Source: Candidatus Thiodiazotropha endoloripes
GTDB taxonomy: Bacteria; Pseudomonadota; Gammaproteobacteria; Chromatiales; Chromatiaceae
DNA length: 64,000 nt
Assembly: GCA_001709035.1 (NCBI GenBank)
Contig: LVKA01000015.1
Coordinates: 62,001 to 126,000 of the forward strand
Direction of reading: 5' to 3'
Shown here piece after piece: positions 3,348-18,975 of this stretch. How positions within the stretch are numbered: position 1 is the first letter of the stretch; each line of letters begins with the position of its first letter. Under the pieces are notes generated by a model. That model was not told the DNA's origin and did no database searches. It saw only the letters and a list, made by a program, of their open reading frames with translations. The translations under genes were made by a program, and so were the position numbers.

Positions 3348-4255
3348 TCACCTGACTCTACCGCCCAGCCGGCGATTATGGGCCGGGTGACGGCGTCCGT
3401 TTGGGCTGACTTTGCGTCCCTGTTGGAGTCCGATGGCAACGCGGTAACTCACCGAGCAGCCCAATACCTGTTGCATCGGATCTTCGTCTTGATCTTCCAG
3501 ATTCAGGTAGCTGTTTTCCACATCGCGTTCCAGGATTCCCTCGCGCTCAAGAAACCCGGCAACCCGATGGCTGATCCTATGCACCAACTCCGTCAATTCC
3601 TGCTGAGCGGGTGCATGGGCACAATGAAATCAACTTTTACCCCAGGGCGTGGTGGTGTAAACACCGTCCAGAAACAGCATGTGAAATGCACGTTCAAATT
3701 GAGCGCACTGCCGAATCTTTGGAGCAGCGTCACCGCACCAGTCTGCGCGGTTTTTCGAGTGAATCCCGACTTCTTAATAAGATGGGACGAGATGGCCCTG
3801 TAAACGATCCCCAGCACCCGCCTCATCAGTTGCGGGCAGCTGGCAAACAGGAACCGCAATTGAAATGGGAAGCTCAGCACCCATTGTCGGATCGGTTGTT
3901 CTGGTAAAACCTCATCCACCAACAGTGCAGCACTTTCCGCCATACGTCTTGCGCCACAGCTGGGGCAAAATCCGCGCCGCTTACAGCTGAATGCTACCAG
4001 GTGTTCATGATGACATTCGCTGCATTGCACCCGCAGGAAGCCGTGTTCCAGGCGGCCACATTTGAGGTAATCCGCAAATTCCTGTGCCACATGCAAGGGC
4101 AAGGGCTTGCCCTGCATGGCCATCACATCCCTAAATTCCGGGTAATACCGCTCGATGAATTGATAGAGCAGCGTCTGTTCCGGCCAGTGACGTTTATAAG
4201 GTGGGCTGAGTGGCGATCGGTCCGTGATCGCTGCTTGAGACATAGCATGCTCCAT
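3348..4255 (-). pseudogene. IS91-family transposase, N-terminal part, frameshifted
   Basis: N-terminal and central part of an IS91-type HUH transposase. It has the zinc-ribbon CSECHHEH...CKRRGFCPSCGARRMAE and then the block WVLSFPFQLRFLFA. It is broken at least twice: one base is missing near 3686, just at the HUH motif (expected NVHFHMLFLDGVY), and an in-frame TGA lies at 3632-3630 (WGKS*FHCAHAPAQQ). The downstream frame ELTELVHRISHRVAGFLER runs to about VAIGLQQGRKV and then loses similarity. The tyrosine-containing region is missing; the C-terminus is found separately at 1218-1595. Dead element. Confidence 0.88.
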
Positions 4256-8193: not shown

Positions 8194-10005
8194 CTACCTG
8201 TTCAGATAAGTCTTCCAACCGCCATAACCGGTAATCTCTTCTGCGTTGGAAATCGCATAAGGTTCACAGATGAAACCGCTCGCCTCGGTACCATCGGCAA
8301 GTTGCAACTTACCAATACCGAGTGGCGATGGAATGGCTGCAACGAAACTACCGAACTGACTCTGTGGCATCGACCAGACTTCGACTTCGATCGCCTCACC
8401 CGCTGCTTCATCCAGTATCAATCCGGGTCTTGCGGGTGGTCCACCTGGCAAGGCATACATTCTGTAAATCGGGGCTGTTTCGGTTTTAGCTATAAGTGTG
8501 GCGCCACGTTCCGTTAACTGCCAGTTAAGCGGCAGGCCCTGCAGATGGGCGCCACACACCACAACGTCGATCTTATTGTAGTCACCCACTGATGGTTGAG
8601 CAGTTGATTGAAGTTCATACTGGGAGGCACCGATTTTCAACTCAAACTGTCGGTGAATCCGTTTCGCAATGGAGAGCAGGGCCCGGTCTGTAAAGGCATC
8701 GCCGACCAGGGTAATGCCGAAAGGCAGACCGGAAGCGGTCATCTGCGTCGGCACGGCCACTGAAGCCAGATCCAGCAGATTCATAAAGTTGGTGTAGTAA
8801 CCCAACTGACTGTTACGCAGAATAGGCTCTTGCAACATCTGCTCGATGGTAAAACAGGTGCCTGCGGTTGGTGTCAGCAGACAGTCGACCGCTGCCAGTT
8901 GTCGATCACAGATTGCCTTCAACCCGCTCAATCTGTATTGAGCTTCGAACAGGCTGCTGGCCTGTAATGCCTTACCGGGTTCGATAATCTCCTGCACGAC
9001 CGGAAACAGTGCTTCCGGGTTGTCATCGATCAAAGGCTGGGTTGCCAGATAACGCTCTGCCACCCAGGGCCCTTCATAGAGTAGTCTGGCTGCTTCGGCA
9101 AAGGGTTGATACTCAATCTCGACAAATTCGATCCCGTCTGTTTCAAGTTGCTTGAGGGTATCGCGATAGGCTTGTTGATAGGCCTGATCACCGAAGAAGT
9201 TCAACTGCTTCCCGGGGATGACACCGATCTTCAGCGGTCCTTGCCGCTCACCATAGTGCCGCTGCTGATTCTGAAACGGATTGTTGCGGCTGTATTCGTC
9301 ATCCGCATCATAGGCTTCAGCCACCGACAGCACCAGATTGGCATCGTCGGTGTCGCAGGCGAAGACGGTGATGCAATCCAGACTTCGGCAGGCTGGCACC
9401 AGGCCTTTGGTGGATAACAGACCCCGGCTTGGTTTCAATCCGACCAGGTTGTTGAAACAGGCTGGCACCCGGCCCGATCCGGCGGTATCTGTACCCAGAC
9501 TGAAGCAGGCCAATCCAAGAGCAACCGACACAGCGGAACCGGAACTGGATCCACCGCTGATATAGTCCGGCTTGAAAGCATTACTGCAGGCACCCCAGGG
9601 GGACCGGGTACCGTTCAGGCCGGTGGCGAACTGATCCAGATTGGCTTTACCCACCGGGATGGCACCGGCGGCAATCAATCGCTCAACCACGGTCGCGGAT
9701 GCCGTCGGGGTATAGGCAAACTCGATACAGGCCGCTGTGGTCGGGATCTCATTGAGATCGATATTATCTTTGATGGCAAAGGGAATGCCCCATAAGGGGA
9801 AGCGCGCCAGATCGAGCTGTTGCAATCGATCGAGATAGTGTGCCTGCTCTGCTTCACTGAGCAGATGGATCCAGATGTTGTAATCCTCATACTCCGAGGC
9901 ACGCTTACGGATCGTCTGCATCACCTGCTCAGGTGTCAGACTGCCGCTAAGATAGGCTCTGCGTAGTGCAGAGATGGTCATCTCATAGGGAAAGTCTGTT
10001 GTCAT
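8194..10005 (-). CDS. atzF: Allophanate hydrolase
   Basis: Amidase-signature enzyme that splits allophanate into ammonia and CO2, the last step of guanidine/urea carboxylase pathways. The Ser-cisSer-Lys triad is visible: Lys in FAIKDNID, the GGSSSGSAVS block and GTDTAGSGRVPA. The ~600-residue length includes the C-terminal domain seen in two-domain allophanate hydrolases, ending in the typical ITGYGGW segment. It follows the carboxylase gene with a three-base gap, so the two are translationally coupled and their products act in sequence. It is the last gene of the operon. Confidence 0.96.
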   Translation of the reverse strand: MTTDFPYEMTISALRRAYLSGSLTPEQVMQTIRKRASEYEDYNIWIHLLSEAEQAHYLDRLQQLDLARFPLWGIPFAIKDNIDLNEIPTTAACIEFAYTPTASATVVERLIAAGAIPVGKANLDQFATGLNGTRSPWGACSNAFKPDYISGGSSSGSAVSVALGLACFSLGTDTAGSGRVPACFNNLVGLKPSRGLLSTKGLVPACRSLDCITVFACDTDDANLVLSVAEAYDADDEYSRNNPFQNQQRHYGERQGPLKIGVIPGKQLNFFGDQAYQQAYRDTLKQLETDGIEFVEIEYQPFAEAARLLYEGPWVAERYLATQPLIDDNPEALFPVVQEIIEPGKALQASSLFEAQYRLSGLKAICDRQLAAVDCLLTPTAGTCFTIEQMLQEPILRNSQLGYYTNFMNLLDLASVAVPTQMTASGLPFGITLVGDAFTDRALLSIAKRIHRQFELKIGASQYELQSTAQPSVGDYNKIDVVVCGAHLQGLPLNWQLTERGATLIAKTETAPIYRMYALPGGPPARPGLILDEAAGEAIEVEVWSMPQSQFGSFVAAIPSPLGIGKLQLADGTEASGFICEPYAISNAEEITGYGGWKTYLNR

Positions 10006-10008
10006 GAG

Positions 10009-13000
10009 CTAACCCTCCTGCAGGACGACCAAGGCCTGCCCCGCTCCAACCCGCTGCCCATTTTCCAACAACACATGGGTAACCGTACTGTCGGCCGAGG
10101 CATAGACCGGAATCTCCATTTTCATCGACTCCAGAATCATCAGACACTCACCCGCTTTCACCTGTTGGCCGACACTGACCTCCGTCTGCCAGACACTGCC
10201 GCTGATCGGACTGTCGATCACCAGACTCTCTTCCGGCCAACTGCTATCTGTCTGCTCTTCGGTCTGCTCGTTCACTTCAAAGTTGAATTGTCCATCCGCA
10301 TGCCATTGGGCGAGCTCGGCTTCGAAGGCCTGCTGCCGGTGTTGACGGAATGCTTCGATCTCAGCTTGCTGTGAATGGATGAACGCCTGGTATTCAGTCA
10401 GACTGAAACGACTCTCCTCAATCTTTATCGGATAGCGACCCTGGGGAAAGTCTTTGCGAATGGTGACCAACTCATCCTGAGTGACTTCATAAAAACGTAT
10501 CTGATCAAAGAATCTCAACAGCCAGGGTTTTTCAAAGGCCGTTGTCTGTTTGTAACGGTTCCACATCTGCAGAGTGCGTCCGACGAACTGATATCCTCCC
10601 GGCCCTTCCATGCCATAGACACAGAGATAGGAGCCGCCGATACCCACTGAATTTTCTGCGGTCCAGGTTCTGGCTGGATTGTATTTGGTGGTCACCAACC
10701 GATGACGGGGATCCACCGGCGTGGCGACCGGTGCACCAAGATAGACATCACCCAATCCCATCACCAGGTAGGAGGCCTCAAACACAATCCGTTTCACATC
10801 ATCGATACTTTGAAGCCCATTGATGCGACGTATGAACTCCAGGTTACTGGGGCACCAGGGGGCGTTCTTGCGCACCGACTGATCATATTTTTCAACGGCT
10901 TTATGGCAGGCTTCGTCATCCCATGAGAGGGGTATATGCACAATCCTCGAGGGCACATGGAGCTGATCGATCTGACTCGCCAGTGCGTGCTCCGCCGTCT
11001 TCAGATGGAGCAGCAATTTGCGCTGACTGAGTCGTTGAGCATCGTAGTGAATCTGTAATGAGCGAATCCCCGGTGTCATTTCCTGCAGTCCATTGAGAGG
11101 ATGTTGCTGTAACCACTGCATCAATGCATGGGCACGAAATCGCAGTGAAATATCCAGTGCCTGTTCGCCATACTCCACCAACATGAAGTGATCGCCGGCG
11201 AGACGATAGACCACATCGACACCATATTCACTGCTTTCAAGCCGCCCCACGACAGGGGTGGTGATCTCAGTGGGCTGGTATTGATCGGTCAGCGGTCTCA
11301 TCTGCGCAACGGCCTTGATCTGATCCCGTTCCAGCCTGACGGCCGTTTCCAGATTCACCGGCACAAAGCTGACTTTATCTCCGGCACGCAGTTGCCCCAG
11401 CTTCCACAGATCGGCCTGGATCACGGTTGCCGGACAGACAAAACCGCCCAGTGAGGGACCATCCGGCCCGAGTATCACCGGCATGTCACCGGTAAAATCC
11501 ACTGTACCGAAGGCATAGGCGTTATCATGAATATTCGAGGGATGGAGTCCCGCTTCCCCGCCATCCTTACGCGCCCACTCGGGCTTGGGTCCGATCAGAC
11601 GGATTCCGGTACGGCTGGAGTTGTAGTGAACTTCCCACTGGTGTGAAAAGAATCGGTCGATATCCGGCTGAGTAAAAAAATCCGGGGCGCCGTGGGGACC
11701 ATAGATCACCCGCAACTGCCACTCATGGGTTATCTGTGGCCTGGCATTTTCAGCGATCGTTTTCAGGTCGGTTACGTTGTCGGATGAGGTGATCCTCAAC
11801 ACGTCACCAGCTCGCAGAGCCCGGCCGTTGTGGCCACCGAACTGTCCCAGGGTAAAGGTCGATTTGGAACCCAGATAGTCCGGGCAGTGAATGCCGCCGC
11901 TTACCGCCAGATAACTCCGCGCCCCCTGCTGTTTGATTCTGCCCAGGGTGAGTGTCTGCCCGGCATGAATCTCCACCGCGCTCCACATCGCCAAAGGTTC
12001 ACCATCGAGGTGTGCTTCGATCTCCGCACCGGTGAGTGCAATCCGGCTATCACAGCTGAACTTCAGGCTAGGCCCCTGGATGGTGATCTCCATGCCGGCC
12101 ACCCCGGCTGGATTGCCCAGCAGCCGGTTGGCCAGCTGAAAGGAGTAGTTGTCGAAAGGACCGGATGGAGGCACACCCACATCCCAGTAACCTGTTCTTG
12201 CGGGATAGTCCTGAATGGTGGTCTGGGTTCCTCCCTGCAGCACATCGATACGGCTCGGGGTATAGACAAAATCATTGAGATAGCGGGTCGTCACTTCACC
12301 CGCCAGTAGCAAAGGATCCCGACTCAACACCGACAGGTAGTCCAGATTGGTCTCACTGCCATAGAGTCGGATTGCTGCGAGTGTGGCCTGGAGTTTTGCA
12401 AATGCTGCCTTCCGCTCAGCAGCATGGACAATCACCTTCGCCAGCATGGGATCGAAATAGGCGGGTACTTCGACACCCGACTCGACCCAGTGGTCTATCC
12501 TCACTTCCTTGTCATCGGGAAAGAGCACCTCGGTCAACAGTCCGGGTGAGGGTTGAAAATCCCGATAGGGATCTTCCGCATAGAGTCTGACCTGGACCGC
12601 ATGGCCTTGTGGTGACAGGGTGGCACGCTCACGCTGCAGATCGACACGATCGCCTGCAGCCTGTCTGATCATCCACGCCACCAGATCGATCCCGTAGACC
12701 TCCTCCGTCACCCCGTGTTCCACCTGCAGACGGGTGTTGACTTCGAGGAAGTAGAACGCATCCGTATCCGCGTCGTAGATAAACTCAACCGTGCCCGCAT
12801 TCCGATAGTGGACACTGGAGAGCAGGGATTCGGCGGTGCGATAGAGTTGTTGGCGCATTTCGTCGGTGAGATTGGGCGCCGGACACTCCTCAACGACTTT
12901 CTGATTACGTCGCTGACTTGAACAGTCCCGTTCGCCGATCGCCAATGCGCCACCTTCACCATCCCCAAAAACCTGAACTTCGATATGTCTGGCCCTGGCG

Positions 13001-13605
13001 ATAAACTTTTCTATGAATACCCCGTCATTGGCGAAGTTGTTGGCCCCAAGGCGCTTGACCGAATCGAAGGCAGCAGTCACCTCTGCAGATGAGTGACACA
13101 ACTGCATACCGATGCCCCCACCTCCGGCGGTACTCTTCAGCATCACCGGATAGCCGATGGTCTCTGCTGCTGCCAGCGCGGACTGGAGATCCTGCAGCAG
13201 TTCGGTGCCCGGAGTCAGTGGCACATCCGCCTGTTGTGCCAGCTCCCTGGCTTTGTGTTTCAAACCGAACAGCTCCATCTGCTCCGGAGTCGGTCCGATG
13301 AAGACGATACCTTCTGCTTCGCAGCGTCTGACAAAGTCGGCATTCTCACTGAGAAAGCCGTAACCGGGGTGTATCGCATCGACACCATTCGCTTTGGCAA
13401 TGGCAATGATCTTATCCATATCCAGATAGGTATCGGCGGCCACACCATCGCCCAGGGAGAAGGCCTGGTCTGCATGGCGGACATGCAGACTATCCGCATC
13501 ACTCTCTGCGTAAATGGCCAGGGACGGGATGTGGAGTCTATGCAGGGTACGGATGATCCGTGTTGCGATGGCGCCACGGTTGGCGATCATTACTTTGGAA
13601 AACAT
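10009..13605 (-). CDS. uca: Urea/guanidine carboxylase, biotin-dependent
   Basis: Single-chain carboxylase of 1198 residues. Order: biotin carboxylase (KVMIANRGAIATRIIRTL, ATP loop STAGGGGIGMQLC), carboxyltransferase halves AHS2 (from about residue 460, PFDNYSFQLANRLLG) and AHS1 (about 790-1060), and a C-terminal biotinyl domain with ESMKMEI (biotin on about Lys1162). Family enzymes carboxylate urea to allophanate or guanidine to carboxyguanidine. Here a guanidine-I riboswitch leads the operon and two DUF1989 deiminase subunits lie directly upstream, so guanidine is the likelier substrate. An Asp/Asn difference in the carboxyltransferase site is reported to separate the two specificities; I could not place that position with certainty. 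Confidence 0.95.
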   Translation of the reverse strand: MFSKVMIANRGAIATRIIRTLHRLHIPSLAIYAESDADSLHVRHADQAFSLGDGVAADTYLDMDKIIAIAKANGVDAIHPGYGFLSENADFVRRCEAEGIVFIGPTPEQMELFGLKHKARELAQQADVPLTPGTELLQDLQSALAAAETIGYPVMLKSTAGGGGIGMQLCHSSAEVTAAFDSVKRLGANNFANDGVFIEKFIARARHIEVQVFGDGEGGALAIGERDCSSQRRNQKVVEECPAPNLTDEMRQQLYRTAESLLSSVHYRNAGTVEFIYDADTDAFYFLEVNTRLQVEHGVTEEVYGIDLVAWMIRQAAGDRVDLQRERATLSPQGHAVQVRLYAEDPYRDFQPSPGLLTEVLFPDDKEVRIDHWVESGVEVPAYFDPMLAKVIVHAAERKAAFAKLQATLAAIRLYGSETNLDYLSVLSRDPLLLAGEVTTRYLNDFVYTPSRIDVLQGGTQTTIQDYPARTGYWDVGVPPSGPFDNYSFQLANRLLGNPAGVAGMEITIQGPSLKFSCDSRIALTGAEIEAHLDGEPLAMWSAVEIHAGQTLTLGRIKQQGARSYLAVSGGIHCPDYLGSKSTFTLGQFGGHNGRALRAGDVLRITSSDNVTDLKTIAENARPQITHEWQLRVIYGPHGAPDFFTQPDIDRFFSHQWEVHYNSSRTGIRLIGPKPEWARKDGGEAGLHPSNIHDNAYAFGTVDFTGDMPVILGPDGPSLGGFVCPATVIQADLWKLGQLRAGDKVSFVPVNLETAVRLERDQIKAVAQMRPLTDQYQPTEITTPVVGRLESSEYGVDVVYRLAGDHFMLVEYGEQALDISLRFRAHALMQWLQQHPLNGLQEMTPGIRSLQIHYDAQRLSQRKLLLHLKTAEHALASQIDQLHVPSRIVHIPLSWDDEACHKAVEKYDQSVRKNAPWCPSNLEFIRRINGLQSIDDVKRIVFEASYLVMGLGDVYLGAPVATPVDPRHRLVTTKYNPARTWTAENSVGIGGSYLCVYGMEGPGGYQFVGRTLQMWNRYKQTTAFEKPWLLRFFDQIRFYEVTQDELVTIRKDFPQGRYPIKIEESRFSLTEYQAFIHSQQAEIEAFRQHRQQAFEAELAQWHADGQFNFEVNEQTEEQTDSSWPEESLVIDSPISGSVWQTEVSVGQQVKAGECLMILESMKMEIPVYASADSTVTHVLLENGQRVGAGQALVVLQEG

Positions 13606-13690
13606 GCTTACCTTGACCGGGTCGTCCCGGTTAAAAAAGCGTCATCAGTGGTCGTCCACTGATCTTTCGTTAATCAATGCGGCAAACTGT

Positions 13691-14338
13691 TCAGGCACTA
13701 CCCCAGATCAGACACTCGATCGGGGTTGGGTTGTAACCGTTACAGGGGTTGTTCAATTGAGGACAGTTTGAAAGCAACACAATCACATCCATCTCGGCCC
13801 TGAGCTCCACATACTTTCCCGGGGCGGAGATACCGTCTTCAAAGGTCAATCCCCCCACTGCGGTGACCGGCACATTCATAAAGAAGTTGATGTTATGAGT
13901 GATATCTCGTTTGCTGATGCCATACTCGGGGTGTTCCGCCACTGCCAGCATCCAGCTGTCACGACAAGCGTGCATGCAACGCTTCTCCAGATCGTAGCGC
14001 ACGGTATTACTTTCCGTGGCACAGGCACCACCAAGGGTATCGTGACGGCCACAGGTATCGGCCACCACTTCCAGCATCACGTTATTCTCATTCGAGCGGA
14101 GTTTCGAACCGGCAGTCAGATAGACGTTACCCTGCTCCCTGATGGTATCCATGGCACTGTAGCGCTCTGCCGGATCATCGGCTGAATAGAACAGGGTATC
14201 CGCCGCCTGGTTACCTTCCAGATCGAGGATGCGAATCGTCTCACCCGCTTTGACGATGCCGATGAAATAGTCACCTGCATCAACCCGGGTTCTTCGGCTT
14301 GCCTGCTGCGCCAACAGCTCTGACTCTTTGATCATCAT
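13691..14338 (-). CDS. DUF1989 carboxyguanidine deiminase subunit (UAAP2 type)
   Basis: A 215-residue protein of the urea carboxylase-associated family (DUF1989). Established work shows that paired DUF1989 proteins next to this carboxylase form a heteromeric carboxyguanidine deiminase (CgdAB) that converts carboxyguanidine to allophanate and ammonia. Visible hallmarks are [10 protein letters not shown] near residue 45, the Cys/His block [16 protein letters not shown] and the C-terminal [16 protein letters not shown], which probably supply metal ligands. Its ATG directly follows the stop of its partner gene. I do not assign A or B subunit identity. An 85-base gap separates it from the carboxylase. 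Confidence 0.93.
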
Positions 14339-15073
14339 CTACTCTCCAATGCCGATATGATAGAGGGCGTTATTCTGAAATCCCCGGGTATTTTCCGCCC
14401 TGAAGTGCATGCAGTAGTCATCCGCTTGCAGTGCCTCAGCCACCCCCAGTTCGATCTGCACTCTGCTTTGCGGATAGTCTGCCGACCGGTTCATCGGGTG
14501 TGGACAGGTGTGCATCATGACAAGCGTGTCCATCTCAAAGCGCAGAGTCACCTGATCACCCGCCTGGCTGTGATCAGCAGCCAGTTCAAGATTACCCTCA
14601 TCGTTAACCATCACTTTGCTGAACCAGTTGATGTTGGCGGCAAGGTCTGCCGCACTGAGGCCATACTTGGCCAGCTCCACCAGAAAAGCATCATGGCCGT
14701 TCTGTTTCCAATCGTTGCGATCGTGTTGATAATCCCTTGCCCCCCACAGGCTCTCAACATGTGAGGCATGGGAGTTTCCGGCAACTGTCTCATGCCAACC
14801 CAGGCTGTCTTCCACGATAGAAGCAAAGATTCTCCCCATATCCGAGTAGAGACAATTGCCTCTGGTCAACTTAAAGGTATGTTGGCATTTCAGGGTGTCC
14901 GGTGCGTTGTATCGCTCCAGAAGATTCTCCGGGTTATAGAAGAGCATTCCCAGATTGGCGGCACCTTTTATATCGCTCAGCCGCATGATGCTGCCTCGGC
15001 GCACACGTAGCGACCAATGGGCCCCGCCGGGCAGTTCCGTTGTATAGTCAATCGACTTGATCATATCGCTCAT
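14339..15073 (-). CDS. DUF1989 carboxyguanidine deiminase subunit (UAAP1 type)
   Basis: A 244-residue paralogue and presumed partner of the downstream DUF1989 protein. Family landmarks are GAANLGMLFYNPENLLERYNA near residue 40 (shown in part), LTRGNCLYSDMGRIF, and HTCPHPMNRSADYP near the C-terminus. The pair is expected to be cytoplasmic and to act between the carboxylase and allophanate hydrolase. The start may be ATG 15073 or the internal ATG three codons later (MIKSIDYTTELPGG). Spacing to the ATPase gene upstream is 13 bases, so all these genes should be cotranscribed. The older name, urea amidolyase-associated protein, implied urea; the riboswitch argues for guanidine. Confidence 0.93.
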   Translation of the reverse strand: MSDMIKSIDYTTELPGGAHWSLRVRRGSIMRLSDIKGAANLGMLFYNPENLLERYNAPDTLKCQHTFKLTRGNCLYSDMGRIFASIVEDSLGWHETVAGNSHASHVESLWGARDYQHDRNDWKQNGHDAFLVELAKYGLSAADLAANINWFSKVMVNDEGNLELAADHSQAGDQVTLRFEMDTLVMMHTCPHPMNRSADYPQSRVQIELGVAEALQADDYCMHFRAENTRGFQNNALYHIGIGE

Positions 15074-15086
15074 ATTGATCTCTCCA

Positions 15087-15893
15087 CTAACCTGCTTGAG
15101 CCGGTATCGGTCTCAAGTGGTCGTCGATCTGTTGATAGGTTGTTTGATCCATATGCCCCACCGGCAGATCATAGGTAATCACGGCACCGTACCTTTGTGG
15201 CGCCTGGGGATCATGTCTCAGCTTGTCGAACACCCACAACCGGGTGCCCAGATAGAAACCCTCTTTCAGGTCATGGGTGACCATGAAGACGGTCAGTTTG
15301 TGTTCACTCCAGAGGTTTAACACCAGGTCGTGCATATCCGATCGGATACCTGGATCGAGGGCACCGAAAGACTCATCCAGCAACAGTATCCGAGGCTTAC
15401 CCAGCAGGGCCTGGGCAAGCGCCAGACGCTGCCTCATACCACCGGAGAGTTCATGGGGATACTTCTTCAACGCCTGACTGAGACCGACCTGTTCGAGTAT
15501 CGACTCAGCCGCCTCACGGGCTGCGCTTCGCCCCGAACCGAACAGATAACCGGTAATGCCTGGACGTTGAAAGCCACAGGTCGCCATCACATTCTCCAAC
15601 ACGGTCATATGGGGAAATACCGAGTATTGCTGAAACACAATACCCCGATCCGATCCCGCTTCATTCGGGATCGGTTTACCGTCGAGCAGTATCTCGCCTT
15701 TGGAGGGCTGTTCGGTGCCCAGCAACATGTTCAAGAAGGTACTCTTACCGCAACCCGAGGCGCCAACCAGGGTGACGAATTCTCCCTCATCGACAGTTTT
15801 GTTGAGACGTTCCAATACGATGTTGTCGTCATACTGCTTCCATACCTGGTTCACCTGAATCATCGGTGTGGAATCTTGATCGGTTTCACTCAT
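15087..15893 (-). CDS. ABC transporter ATPase, guanidine/urea-carboxylase-linked
   Basis: Nucleotide-binding subunit (268 residues) of a nitrate/sulfonate/taurine-type importer. Walker A is GASGCGKST, the signature is LSGGMRQRLALAQALL, Walker B is RILLLDESFGALD and the switch His is in MVTHDLKEG. The N-terminus MSETDQDSTPMIQVNQVWKQY is normal for the family. Its start overlaps the permease stop (ATGA), so the two are translationally coupled. Together with the permease and periplasmic protein it should import the nitrogen substrate of the pathway, presumably guanidine, but the substrate is inferred from context only. Confidence 0.93.
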   Translation of the reverse strand: MSETDQDSTPMIQVNQVWKQYDDNIVLERLNKTVDEGEFVTLVGASGCGKSTFLNMLLGTEQPSKGEILLDGKPIPNEAGSDRGIVFQQYSVFPHMTVLENVMATCGFQRPGITGYLFGSGRSAAREAAESILEQVGLSQALKKYPHELSGGMRQRLALAQALLGKPRILLLDESFGALDPGIRSDMHDLVLNLWSEHKLTVFMVTHDLKEGFYLGTRLWVFDKLRHDPQAPQRYGAVITYDLPVGHMDQTTYQQIDDHLRPIPAQAG

Positions 15894-16711
15894 GACTTAC
15901 CTCCCTGCACATACCAAGGAAAGAGTTTGTTCGTCAGCTTCCGCAGAGTCACATCAATGAGAAATGCGAGGATGGTTATCCAGGCCACATAGGGAAGAAT
16001 CACATCCATCGCCATGTAACGCCTTACCAGGAAGATCCGATACCCCAGACCGTCTGTTGCAGCGACCGCTTCCGCCGCGATCAGAAACAGCCAGCCTGCA
16101 CCGAGCGACAAGCGCACCGCATCGAACAGTTTTGGCATGATCTGGGGCAGCAGCACCCGAATCATGATCTGCGAGGTATTGGCGCCCAGTGACTGGGCTT
16201 TTACCAACTGCTCGAAGGGAATCTCCTGAGTGCGTCGTTGAATGTCCCGGGCGATGAAGGGTGTGATGCCGAGGGCGATCAAAACCACTTTAGAGAGCTC
16301 GCCGAGACCGAAAACAATGAACAGAATCGGCAGAATCGCCAGCGGTGGTATCAGCGAGACCACAGTCAGCAATGGCGAAAGGGAGGCAGCGATCATCGGC
16401 AGTGCGCCGGTCACCAGACCGATCAGCAACCCAAGCATTGCCGCAATCAGGATTCCCAAACCGAGACGGGTCAGACTGCTGGCGGTATCCTGCCAGAACA
16501 GATACTCGCCGGATCGTTTGCTGGGCTCGAAGGCCATCCGTTCCAGACCATCGGCAATCTGACTCATGCTGGGTAACAGTTTGTCATTCGGATTCACTTC
16601 CAGACGGGCATCCGAACCCATCACATAGAGCAGGATCAAAAGCACAAAGGGTGCGATACCCAATAACAGCTTGAATGCCCTGCCCGGGTGTTGATTGATG
16701 AATTTCTTCAT
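15890..16711 (-). CDS. ABC transporter permease, guanidine/urea-carboxylase-linked
   Basis: Inner-membrane permease of the SsuC/TauC type. It has an N-terminal helix (LLLGIAPFVLLILLYVMG) and about five further helices. The cytoplasmic EAA-like loop lies around residues 165-200 (PFIARDIQRRTQEIPFEQLV...AQSLGA). I prefer ATG 16711 (MKKFINQHPGRAFK), because the 14 upstream codons add no recognisable membrane or family sequence; neither start has a strong ribosome site. A 220-base gap with a strong hairpin separates it from the binding-protein gene upstream. The N-terminus, with about 25 periplasmic residues after the first helix, resembles transporters linked to urea carboxylase. Confidence 0.9.
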   Translation of the reverse strand: MKKFINQHPGRAFKLLLGIAPFVLLILLYVMGSDARLEVNPNDKLLPSMSQIADGLERMAFEPSKRSGEYLFWQDTASSLTRLGLGILIAAMLGLLIGLVTGALPMIAASLSPLLTVVSLIPPLAILPILFIVFGLGELSKVVLIALGITPFIARDIQRRTQEIPFEQLVKAQSLGANTSQIMIRVLLPQIMPKLFDAVRLSLGAGWLFLIAAEAVAATDGLGYRIFLVRRYMAMDVILPYVAWITILAFLIDVTLRKLTNKLFPWYVQGGKS

Positions 16712-16845
16712 AGGGTTTCTCGAAACAAACTCCACCGGCCAGCCTGCATGCAAAGCTATGGCATTGAGCGTCCAATGGTAATTAAGGAGGATGAAATCTC
16801 CGCAACAATCGATCAGCTTCAGGCCGCAATGATTAATTCACTCAT

Positions 16846-16930: not shown

Positions 16931-17971
16931 TTAGAGCTTGCCTTCCGCAGCCATGGTCATGTAGCTGGGGTCAAAGCGGAACTTGATATTGCCTTTATCA
17001 CCGAAGGTGCCGGCAGGCATCTCGATACCGATAAAACCCGCATCCGGCGCACCGTCACCCAACAGGCCATGATCGAAGGAGAAGTTGGCGACATGCTCCA
17101 TGGTGGCCAGCAGTTCTTTACTGTTGGTGAGCTCCAGAGCCGCCGCCGGAGTATAGAACATCTCGGTACTGGCCAGTTGTGCTTCATAGCCTGCCAGGTC
17201 GGTACCGGATGCGGTTGCCATATGGGTTTTCGCATCGACGCCAGCCTTATCGGAGCCACTCATGACAGACATGATTTCATACCAGGCACCCACCAGCGCC
17301 TTACCCAGTTTCGGGTTGGCCTTGAGTGTTTCGGTATTGATTACCAGCAGATCGATAATTTCGCCCGGAATCATCGAGGAATCGAACACCTTGGTGCTCT
17401 TTGGCATGGATGTGATCTCACTCAGCAGAGGATTCCAGGTAGCAACGGCAGTGACATCATCGGTGCCGTAGACGGCAACCATATCCGCATCGGAGGTATT
17501 CACCACAGTGAGATCCTTTTCACTCAAACCAACACTCTCCAGACCACGGGCCAGCAGATAGTGCGAGACACTCAACTCCACCAGGTTAACCTGCTGCCCT
17601 TTGATATCGGCCAGCTTGTCCTTGCCTTTCAGCACCACCCCGTCGTTACCGTTGGAGAAGTCACCCACCACCAGTGCGGTACTGTCCACACCACCGGCAG
17701 CTGGAATGGTCAGGGCATCCATGTTGGTCATGGTACAGGCGTCGAACTCACCCGCTGTGTATTGATTGATCGATTCAATATAGTCGTTGATCTGCACCAC
17801 TTCGATATCGATACCGTATTTATCAGCCCATTTATTGACAATGCCCTGCTCTGCCCCATAGGCCCAGGGCATCCAACCGACATAGATCGACCAGCATATT
17901 TTGAAACTGTCGGCGGCCTGAGCCACAGAGCTAAGAGAAAGTGCGAGAATTAATGCGGCAAAACGTTTCAT
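16931..17971 (-). CDS. Periplasmic substrate-binding protein, guanidine/urea-carboxylase-linked ABC transporter
   Basis: A 346-residue binding protein of the NMT1/TauA-like fold with a clear signal peptide (MKRFAALILALSLSSVAQA, cleavage before ADSF). The mature part starts with ICWSIYVGWMPWAYGAEQGI, rich in aromatic residues that could line a cation-binding pocket. It is the first gene after the guanidine-I riboswitch. Its Shine-Dalgarno GAGAGG sits six bases before the ATG and is exactly complementary to a segment inside the riboswitch region. Function as a guanidine-capturing protein is inferred from operon and riboswitch, not from sequence alone. Confidence 0.92.
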   Translation of the reverse strand: MKRFAALILALSLSSVAQAADSFKICWSIYVGWMPWAYGAEQGIVNKWADKYGIDIEVVQINDYIESINQYTAGEFDACTMTNMDALTIPAAGGVDSTALVVGDFSNGNDGVVLKGKDKLADIKGQQVNLVELSVSHYLLARGLESVGLSEKDLTVVNTSDADMVAVYGTDDVTAVATWNPLLSEITSMPKSTKVFDSSMIPGEIIDLLVINTETLKANPKLGKALVGAWYEIMSVMSGSDKAGVDAKTHMATASGTDLAGYEAQLASTEMFYTPAAALELTNSKELLATMEHVANFSFDHGLLGDGAPDAGFIGIEMPAGTFGDKGNIKFRFDPSYMTMAAEGKL

Positions 17972-17996
17972 GAAGAACCTCTCAGTTACATCTGTC

Positions 17997-18160
17997 TACA
18001 CGGAGCACCCTTGGCAGTCAGACCAAGCAAGTCTCCCGGGCTTTTATCCCGCCGTGTAACCCATACCCTGCACTGAGAGGGAGAGGTCGAACGCTCTTGG
18101 ACCAGTCATCGCAGCTCACCACCTTGTCTGGTATTGAGCCGGATCGGAACCCTAGCTTTC
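17997..18160 (-). promoter_or_regulatory. Guanidine-I riboswitch (ykkC class)
   Basis: Read on the minus strand, the region has the hallmark ykkC elements in order: CTAGGGTTCCG at 18155-18145, ACTGGTCCAAGAGCG near 18105-18091, ACACGG at 18057-18052 and GGGATAAAAGCCCGGGAGA at about 18050-18032. A downstream CCGTGT at 18004-17999 can pair with ACACGG. This class binds guanidinium and turns on detoxification or assimilation genes. The SD of the following gene at 17983-17978 lies in ACTGAGAGG, the exact complement of CCTCTCAGT at 18080-18072 within the RNA, which suggests an expression platform acting on translation start. No U-rich intrinsic terminator is visible. Confidence 0.95.
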
Positions 18161-18975
18161 TATTTCGGTTAAATTGTATTGTCCTGATAACAAGGGCACG
18201 GACGCAAACTACTTTGCAAAACCCAGGCCAATGAAATTAATTGACCAATATTCAATACTTTAACCAAAACAACATCTAATCCCCGATCGCTTCATCCTTG
18301 GAACACGAAGCAGAATGGTGCACGCTGGCAACCGCTTCGCACCAAAAACACGCAGCCGAAACAGTCGAGCGTCACAGCGTTCTCATTGATTTACGTTAAA
18401 ATGACAGATGGCAGACATCGGAATCTGTTACCGGACATCCAAGGAGCAATGACGGCTCATGAGGATATCTGTAACCTTATGTCACCCCGTCAATTCAAAT
18501 AGGTCCACTCACGATCAGGCTGACTCTATCCGTTACCTGATCGAGCACTATCCTGGTAACCATTAAGATCTTGCCTTTGGCGATGACGAATCGGTCTACC
18601 CCGGCAGCGGTGAGCGACAATCGAGAGTCTGGAGGCCGGATAGTATTGCAGACCCTGCCTGGTTCAGTTTGATCAATGATCATCCATACCGCTTTTTTGC
18701 TGGGCACAGAAACAGATCCAGCAAGGCGCATTAGATTCGTATTAGCAGGTCCTAAAATCGTAGCCCTCAAAGTTGCCGGGCGATTGTTGTTCAATAAGGA
18801 GATCGAAATTTAGTGGATCAAGCAGTGATTTGCCGCATATAAACACGAATCACCACGACTTTCGCGCCACTATAGCGAGAGGAGAAATATCTGTCAGACA
18901 AGTCTGGCCGAATGTGGGAACAACAGGGTTTACGCCTTATCAAACTACCAAACCTGTGGTAATTGATCACCCATC
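18161..18975. other. Long intergenic stretch; promoter of riboswitch operon, otherwise nothing firm
   Basis: About 800 bases without a recognisable gene. The left end should hold the promoter of the guanidine operon. A 17-codon frame at 18449-18502 (plus, MTAHEDICNLMSPRQFK) has a good AAGGAG six bases before its ATG but matches nothing I know; it may be the relic of a decayed gene. A 99-codon frame on the minus strand at 18495-18794 lacks family features and is not called. Confidence 0.5.

Follow-up and report, generated by a model that had tools for sequence, protein, structure and literature searches.

Genomic context of the guanidine-I leader

The window (the whole 64,000-nucleotide stretch of the Candidatus Thiodiazotropha endoloripes contig that was analysed) harbours a guanidine-I riboswitch aptamer of family RF00442, which heads a set of guanidine transport and degradation genes (i.e. 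those for an ABC importer, UAAP1 and UAAP2, urea/guanidine carboxylase and allophanate hydrolase; Table 1). Read along the minus strand (18230-17971), the leader comprises a sigma-54-like promoter, the aptamer, a linker of approximately 60 nt, the Shine-Dalgarno (SD) sequence GAGAGG, which ends 6 nt upstream of the start codon, and the ATG itself. The operon layout matches the known guanidine-assimilation arrangement (PMC12508155, PMC12186494; these papers, like the others cited here by accession, were available as excerpts). Because a guanidine-II riboswitch sits between UAAP2 and the carboxylase gene, the importer and the carboxylase have separate guanidine switches, as is likewise described for V. 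boliviensis (PMC12508155, excerpt).

Table 1. Features of the guanidine operon and its leader (positions within the window).
Feature	Position	Strand	Basis
Substrate-binding protein of ABC importer (first gene under control)	16931..17971	-	TIGR03427, 564.1 bits (cut-off 333.9)
Importer ATG	17971-17969	-	sequence
Permease	15890-16753	-	operon
ATPase	15087-15893	-	operon
UAAP1	14339-15073	-	operon
UAAP2	13691-14338	-	operon
Urea/guanidine carboxylase	10009-13605	-	operon
Allophanate hydrolase	8194-10005	-	operon (remainder downstream of the first gene: 8194..16753)
Guanidine-II riboswitch	13617..13663	-	RF01068, 41.7 bits (gathering 32)
Guanidine-I riboswitch aptamer	18031..18166	-	RF00442, 70.7 bits (gathering 63), model 1-107 of 107
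Anti-SD arm CCTCTCAGT: loop and inner 5' strand of aptamer hairpin P2	18072..18080	-	sequence; fold
ACTGAGAGG: SD plus adjoining 5' bases	17978..17986	-	sequence; P2 coevolution in relatives
Sigma-54-like promoter TGGCCTGGGTTTTGCA (-24/-12)	18215..18230	-	pattern match; predicted transcript start near 18204
TTACAC in the conserved core of the aptamer, covering the 3' end of P2 and the junction to P3; base-paired in the predicted OFF fold	18054..18059	-	fold; complement enriched in relatives' linkers
Anti-core arm GTGTAG	17996..18001	-	fold: 6 bp with 18059-18054
Linker hairpin: GGAG 18036-18033/CTCC 18005-18002, CTTGGT 18027-18022/GCCAAG 18015-18010; no T-run after	18002..18036	-	fold; terminator scan

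The sigma-54 pattern has two matches in the window against 1.05 expected, which is weak evidence taken alone; the site ahead of the aptamer is kept in all five congeneric leaders, and 44 of 107 importer leaders have TGGY-N7-TTGC no more than 200 nt ahead of the aptamer, where shuffles would give 1.2. These sequence patterns suggest that the guanidine switch is fronted by a nitrogen-limitation promoter.

Two further reading frames were recorded outside the operon. Approximately 6 kb away lies a gene for a SugE-like small multidrug resistance transporter (24254-23943, minus strand), whose best NCBIfam match, SugE, scores 90.8 bits (under the cut-off of 126); it is possibly a guanidinium exporter, and the riboswitch model scan gave no match ahead of it. 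The reading frame at 3593-4255 (minus strand) resembles, by eye, a truncated transposase with a zinc-binding N-terminus.

Complementarity between the aptamer and the ribosome-binding site

An earlier note on this DNA had pointed to a nine-base complement between the riboswitch and the ribosome-binding site, and the two arms (Table 1) are indeed perfect reverse complements. When the aptamer was dinucleotide-shuffled 3,000 times, 29 of the shuffles matched the 21 nt preceding the ATG over at least 9 nt, as did 22 of 3,000 for aptamer plus linker; as about 1% of shuffled aptamers reach this length, the complement is weak evidence on its own. The 9-mer is intact in four of the five congeneric leaders, and in L018 position eight carries T instead of G, an uncompensated change that leaves seven contiguous pairs; apart from L018 the arms are nearly invariant, and no covariation could be read among these five leaders. 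In the window's genus, CCTCTC also stands in tandem in the 5' strand of P2 (18085-18075, minus strand), so that two SD registers are possible, while L104 has a single copy.

The aptamer occurs in 19 of 210 genomes from the order (within the same genus, in 5 of 22 listed genomes), in 29 of 369 genomes drawn from the class, and in at least 119 stretches of named contigs, these last being retrieved with a pattern biased toward proteobacterial-type aptamers. From 179 aptamer records we obtained 111 leaders ahead of importer-type genes, which fell into 56 clusters; the remaining 68 records comprised 36 that were used as leaders of other genes (some importer-type genes missed earlier among them) and 32 that were dropped because they had no usable start or P2. 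Start codons were picked by SD score, independently of P2.

Coevolution of P2 with the Shine-Dalgarno region

Across the 56 clusters, P2 pairs more stably with the 25-nt SD window of its own leader (mean -18.22 kcal/mol) than with those of other leaders (-15.17 kcal/mol after swapping; z -7.6, 0 of 20,000 permutations, with kinship handled by clustering only and not by a species tree). The covariation between the two segments that the earlier note had proposed as a check is thus present in the homologues, is centred on the SD and persists after regression on GC content (z -6.8). Looser clustering (38, 28 and 8 clusters) gave z values of -5.8, -4.5 and -2.4, respectively. When the window was slid along the transcript the signal was highest over the stretch from -25 to -1 ahead of the start codon and absent from 0 to +19, with a background of z -3.4 at +35..+54. 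Uninterrupted Watson-Crick runs of at least seven pairs were present in 17 of the 56 matched pairs, compared with 10.1% of the swapped ones.

Subjected to the same swap test, P3 gave z -1.7, hairpin P1b z 0.0 and the linker z 0.2, and on these grounds both P1b as SD partner and a linker-local anti-SD as a general mechanism were rejected. By eye, leader L010 resembles a linker-local anti-SD leader. The P2 signal was small for linkers longer than 80 nt (z -2.0, 508 of 20,000; 22 representatives), amounted to z -3.7 (3 of 10,000; 32 representatives) for the leaders of other genes (a set that still contains some importer genes missed earlier), and was z -1.4 (1,760 of 20,000) for the terminator-type leaders, which were intended as a negative control and number only eight.

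These figures bear on the simplest alternative, namely that C/U-rich P2 5' strands and A/G-rich SDs are complementary through composition alone. Consistent with it, nine matched nucleotides are reached by about one shuffle in a hundred, and swapped pairs are already fairly complementary; yet the swap test preserves composition and none of its permutations reach the observed mean, and the GC-corrected score stays strongly negative, so we regard a chance origin as scarcely credible.

At the level of single base pairs, the SD GAG was set on the conserved P2 CTC/CTT in an anchored alignment of 70 unique rows (representing 94 of the 111 leaders, as 17 without the P2 ACC anchor or a correctly spaced GAG were dropped). 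Standard pairs made up 62.3% of the anchored positions, versus 55.7% with shuffled SDs (0 of 5,000) and 38-48% when the strands were slid by 1-3. The conserved pairs of this helix are uninformative, and the excess pairing lies at the loop-side P2 positions 6-9 (each z 3.5 to 4.6), where it involves several pair types. In Pseudomonas-type rows, a loop T/SD A combination is swapped for loop A/SD T. Individual relatives show clear complementarity: 9 bp in L028, an 11-bp run with one G-U in L104 (which contains the window's 9-mer), 12 bp in L066 and, as the longest found, a 17-bp run with one G-U in L033, where the 3' side of P2 plus the core opposes the SD region. In L104, L066, L033 and L009 the complementarity runs beyond the loop and takes in part of one P2 strand, 5' or 3', an extension that strand invasion demands.

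A second predicted helix involves the conserved core. Linker stretches of at least 6 nt complementary to the core GGTTACACGG occur in 22 of 56 linkers, compared with 4.6 in shuffles. In L094 the core reads GGTCACACGG and the linker TGTGAC, a matched change; the core is also GGTCAC in L007 and L045, and their linkers hold no match.

Predicted folding of the leader

The folding energies reported here are thermodynamic predictions that include neither ligand nor tertiary contacts. In the ligand-free ensemble of the window leader the two nine-base arms pair with each other at a predicted probability of about 1, and the unpaired probability of GAGAGG is near 0; hence the proposal of the earlier note that the SD is hidden without ligand agrees with the prediction, which buries it in exactly this P2-segment helix. 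The minimum-energy fold extends the 9 bp by three more (18071-18069 with 17990-17988), while P3 and the linker hairpin remain in place. In folds of the growing transcript, the anti-core helix is predicted to be present by the time position 17995 is reached; the SD helix follows at 17978, with loss of P2. Forcing the aptamer pairs raises the ensemble energy from -77.0 to -68.8 kcal/mol; since the free fold is better by these 8.2 kcal/mol, the ligand would have to act during transcription. The predicted cost of opening the SD falls from 8.3 to 3.9 kcal/mol upon forcing the aptamer, and the SD is then still predicted to pair weakly and locally with the early codons.

P2 is the predicted main partner of the SD in 27 of the 56 representatives. 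Over all 56 the fold-based effect is modest: the mean unpaired probability of the SD is 0.22 versus 0.31 for the downstream part alone, and the opening costs are 6.3 versus 5.5 kcal/mol (with 9 of 56 opposite by more than 1 kcal/mol). A sharp separation of ON and OFF states by folding was not obtained across all leaders.

The covarying positions 6-9 lie at or near the P2 loop, as would be anticipated if the loop formed a pseudoknot with the bases 5' of the SD in a ligand-bound or docked state that leaves P2 intact. Such an arrangement accounts poorly for complementarity that enters the 5' or 3' strand of P2 and for a predicted fold in which P2 is fully replaced; furthermore, it would imply that ligand binding hides the SD, whereas guanidine riboswitches are reported to behave as ON switches (PMC12508155, excerpt). 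We consider it very improbable.

Transcription termination as an alternative output

The statement in the earlier note that no T-run terminator is visible holds for the leader: neither the terminator scan nor the T-run count revealed an intrinsic terminator hairpin with a U-run between the aptamer and the start codon. The two terminator-like sites in 17900-18500 both fall outside the stretch from aptamer to ATG, and the longest T-run from aptamer to SD is 2. Among the relatives, a T-run of at least five is present in only 12 of 111 importer-leader linkers (the representatives in the T-run count number 57, since the L050 locus holds two leaders), and a classic terminator, the 3' arm of which complements the 3' end of the aptamer, in 8 of 147 leaders. 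The stretch L146 contains two guanidine-I leaders; in one of them CTCCCGGGC and the Ts after it make up a classic terminator, and the other lacks that pattern.

In a minority of leaders the same aptamer carries a classic terminator, some importer leaders have the T-run of at least five, and the available excerpts describe guanidine-I as usually a transcriptional ON switch (PMC12186494), as presumably destabilising the intrinsic terminator of the V. boliviensis operon (PMC12508155) and as acting on transcription in comammox bacteria (PMC11410670). Accordingly, the main output here might be transcriptional, with a linker hairpin or Rho stopping the polymerase when guanidine is lacking and the SD pairing being secondary or serving to expose the RNA to Rho; the length of the operon fits this, given that an SD switch directly reaches the first gene only. 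Considering that the window linker has no T-run and that termination alone would not predict the coevolution of P2 with the SD, we judge this alternative to be unlikely. Hiding of the SD could additionally lower the mRNA level via Rho-dependent termination, and such loss of untranslated mRNA is compatible with SD hiding because it may follow from it.

Proposed mechanism and its implications

We reason that the leader is a guanidine-I ON switch that sequesters the SD through invasion of P2 by the SD segment and presumably controls translation (a reading to which we assign a probability of roughly 0.8). The translational switch put forward in the earlier note is thereby supported by the P2-SD covariation and by the predicted ligand-free fold, and is refined in two respects, in that the SD segment appears to displace P2 and linker bases to pair with part of the conserved core. 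Without guanidine, the SD region ACUGAGAGG and the preceding UGU would pair with CCUCUCAGUGCA, which makes up the P2 loop and inner 5' strand, and the linker GUGUAG would take UUACAC of the core, so that P2 and part of the ligand site would be taken apart and the SD concealed. With guanidine present, the aptamer would retain its own strands, the anti-SD would stay occupied and ribosomes could load on the importer gene. The SD segment would thus mimic one strand of P2 and reach into its loop, which covaries with the nucleotides immediately 5' of the SD and is probably the toehold for the invasion. That guanidine drives the structural change, and that exposure of the SD raises translation, we infer from reports that the class behaves as an ON switch (PMC12186494, excerpt); the order of these events during transcription is likewise an inference.

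On a broader scale, most gammaproteobacterial importer guanidine-I leaders, instead of being plain terminators, may share one SD-switch design, with an SD region that mimics a P2 strand and a lineage-specific P2-loop toehold that stays complementary to the bases 5' of the SD; together with the sigma-54-like promoters they would act as a gate with two inputs, nitrogen need and guanidine, a generalization whose chances we see as evenly balanced. If the SD mechanism is true, a large set of gammaproteobacterial guanidine-I riboswitches uses a second expression platform with the same aptamer, offering a clear case of one aptamer serving two outputs through a change of the competing strand only, and matching between loop and SD becomes a sharp prediction. 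The mechanism also bears on the balance between importer and carboxylase, as the operon has a separate guanidine-II switch ahead of the carboxylase gene.

Relative to transcriptional guanidine-I, the SD-sequestering output appears new, with the reservation that literature coverage is partial. The titles, abstract openings and excerpts searched (including PMC10907184, PMC7266159, PMC7736828, PMC9788540, PMC8390497 and PMC6031431) contain no description of a translational guanidine-I, and those of PMC9561414 yielded no passage mentioning guanidine-I; the primary guanidine-I papers (Nelson 2017, Meyer 2011, Reiss 2017) were outside the search and may hold an earlier mention.

Comparison with known riboswitches

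The leader shares its aptamer family (RF00442) with the guanidine-I (ykkC subtype 1) riboswitches that employ an intrinsic terminator, and differs from them in having none, as the SD instead of a terminator arm competes for the strands of the aptamer. The placement of guanidine-I at the start and guanidine-II inside the operon resembles that of the V. boliviensis and Raoultella-type operons (PMC12508155, PMC12186494, excerpts), and the guanidine-I relative of V. boliviensis is reported to bind guanidinium at approximately 44 µM (PMC12508155, excerpt). With guanidine-II and guanidine-III, which are described as translational, it has in common the proposed release of the SD by guanidine (PMC12186494, excerpt). 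Their aptamers, in contrast, are unrelated, and the anti-SD is here the P2 hairpin of guanidine-I. Pairing of the SD alternately with an aptamer strand, by means of mutually exclusive helices, is a general design of SD-sequestering riboswitches; what sets the present leader apart is that a variable hairpin loop together with its stem serves as the partner and covaries with the SD of each lineage.
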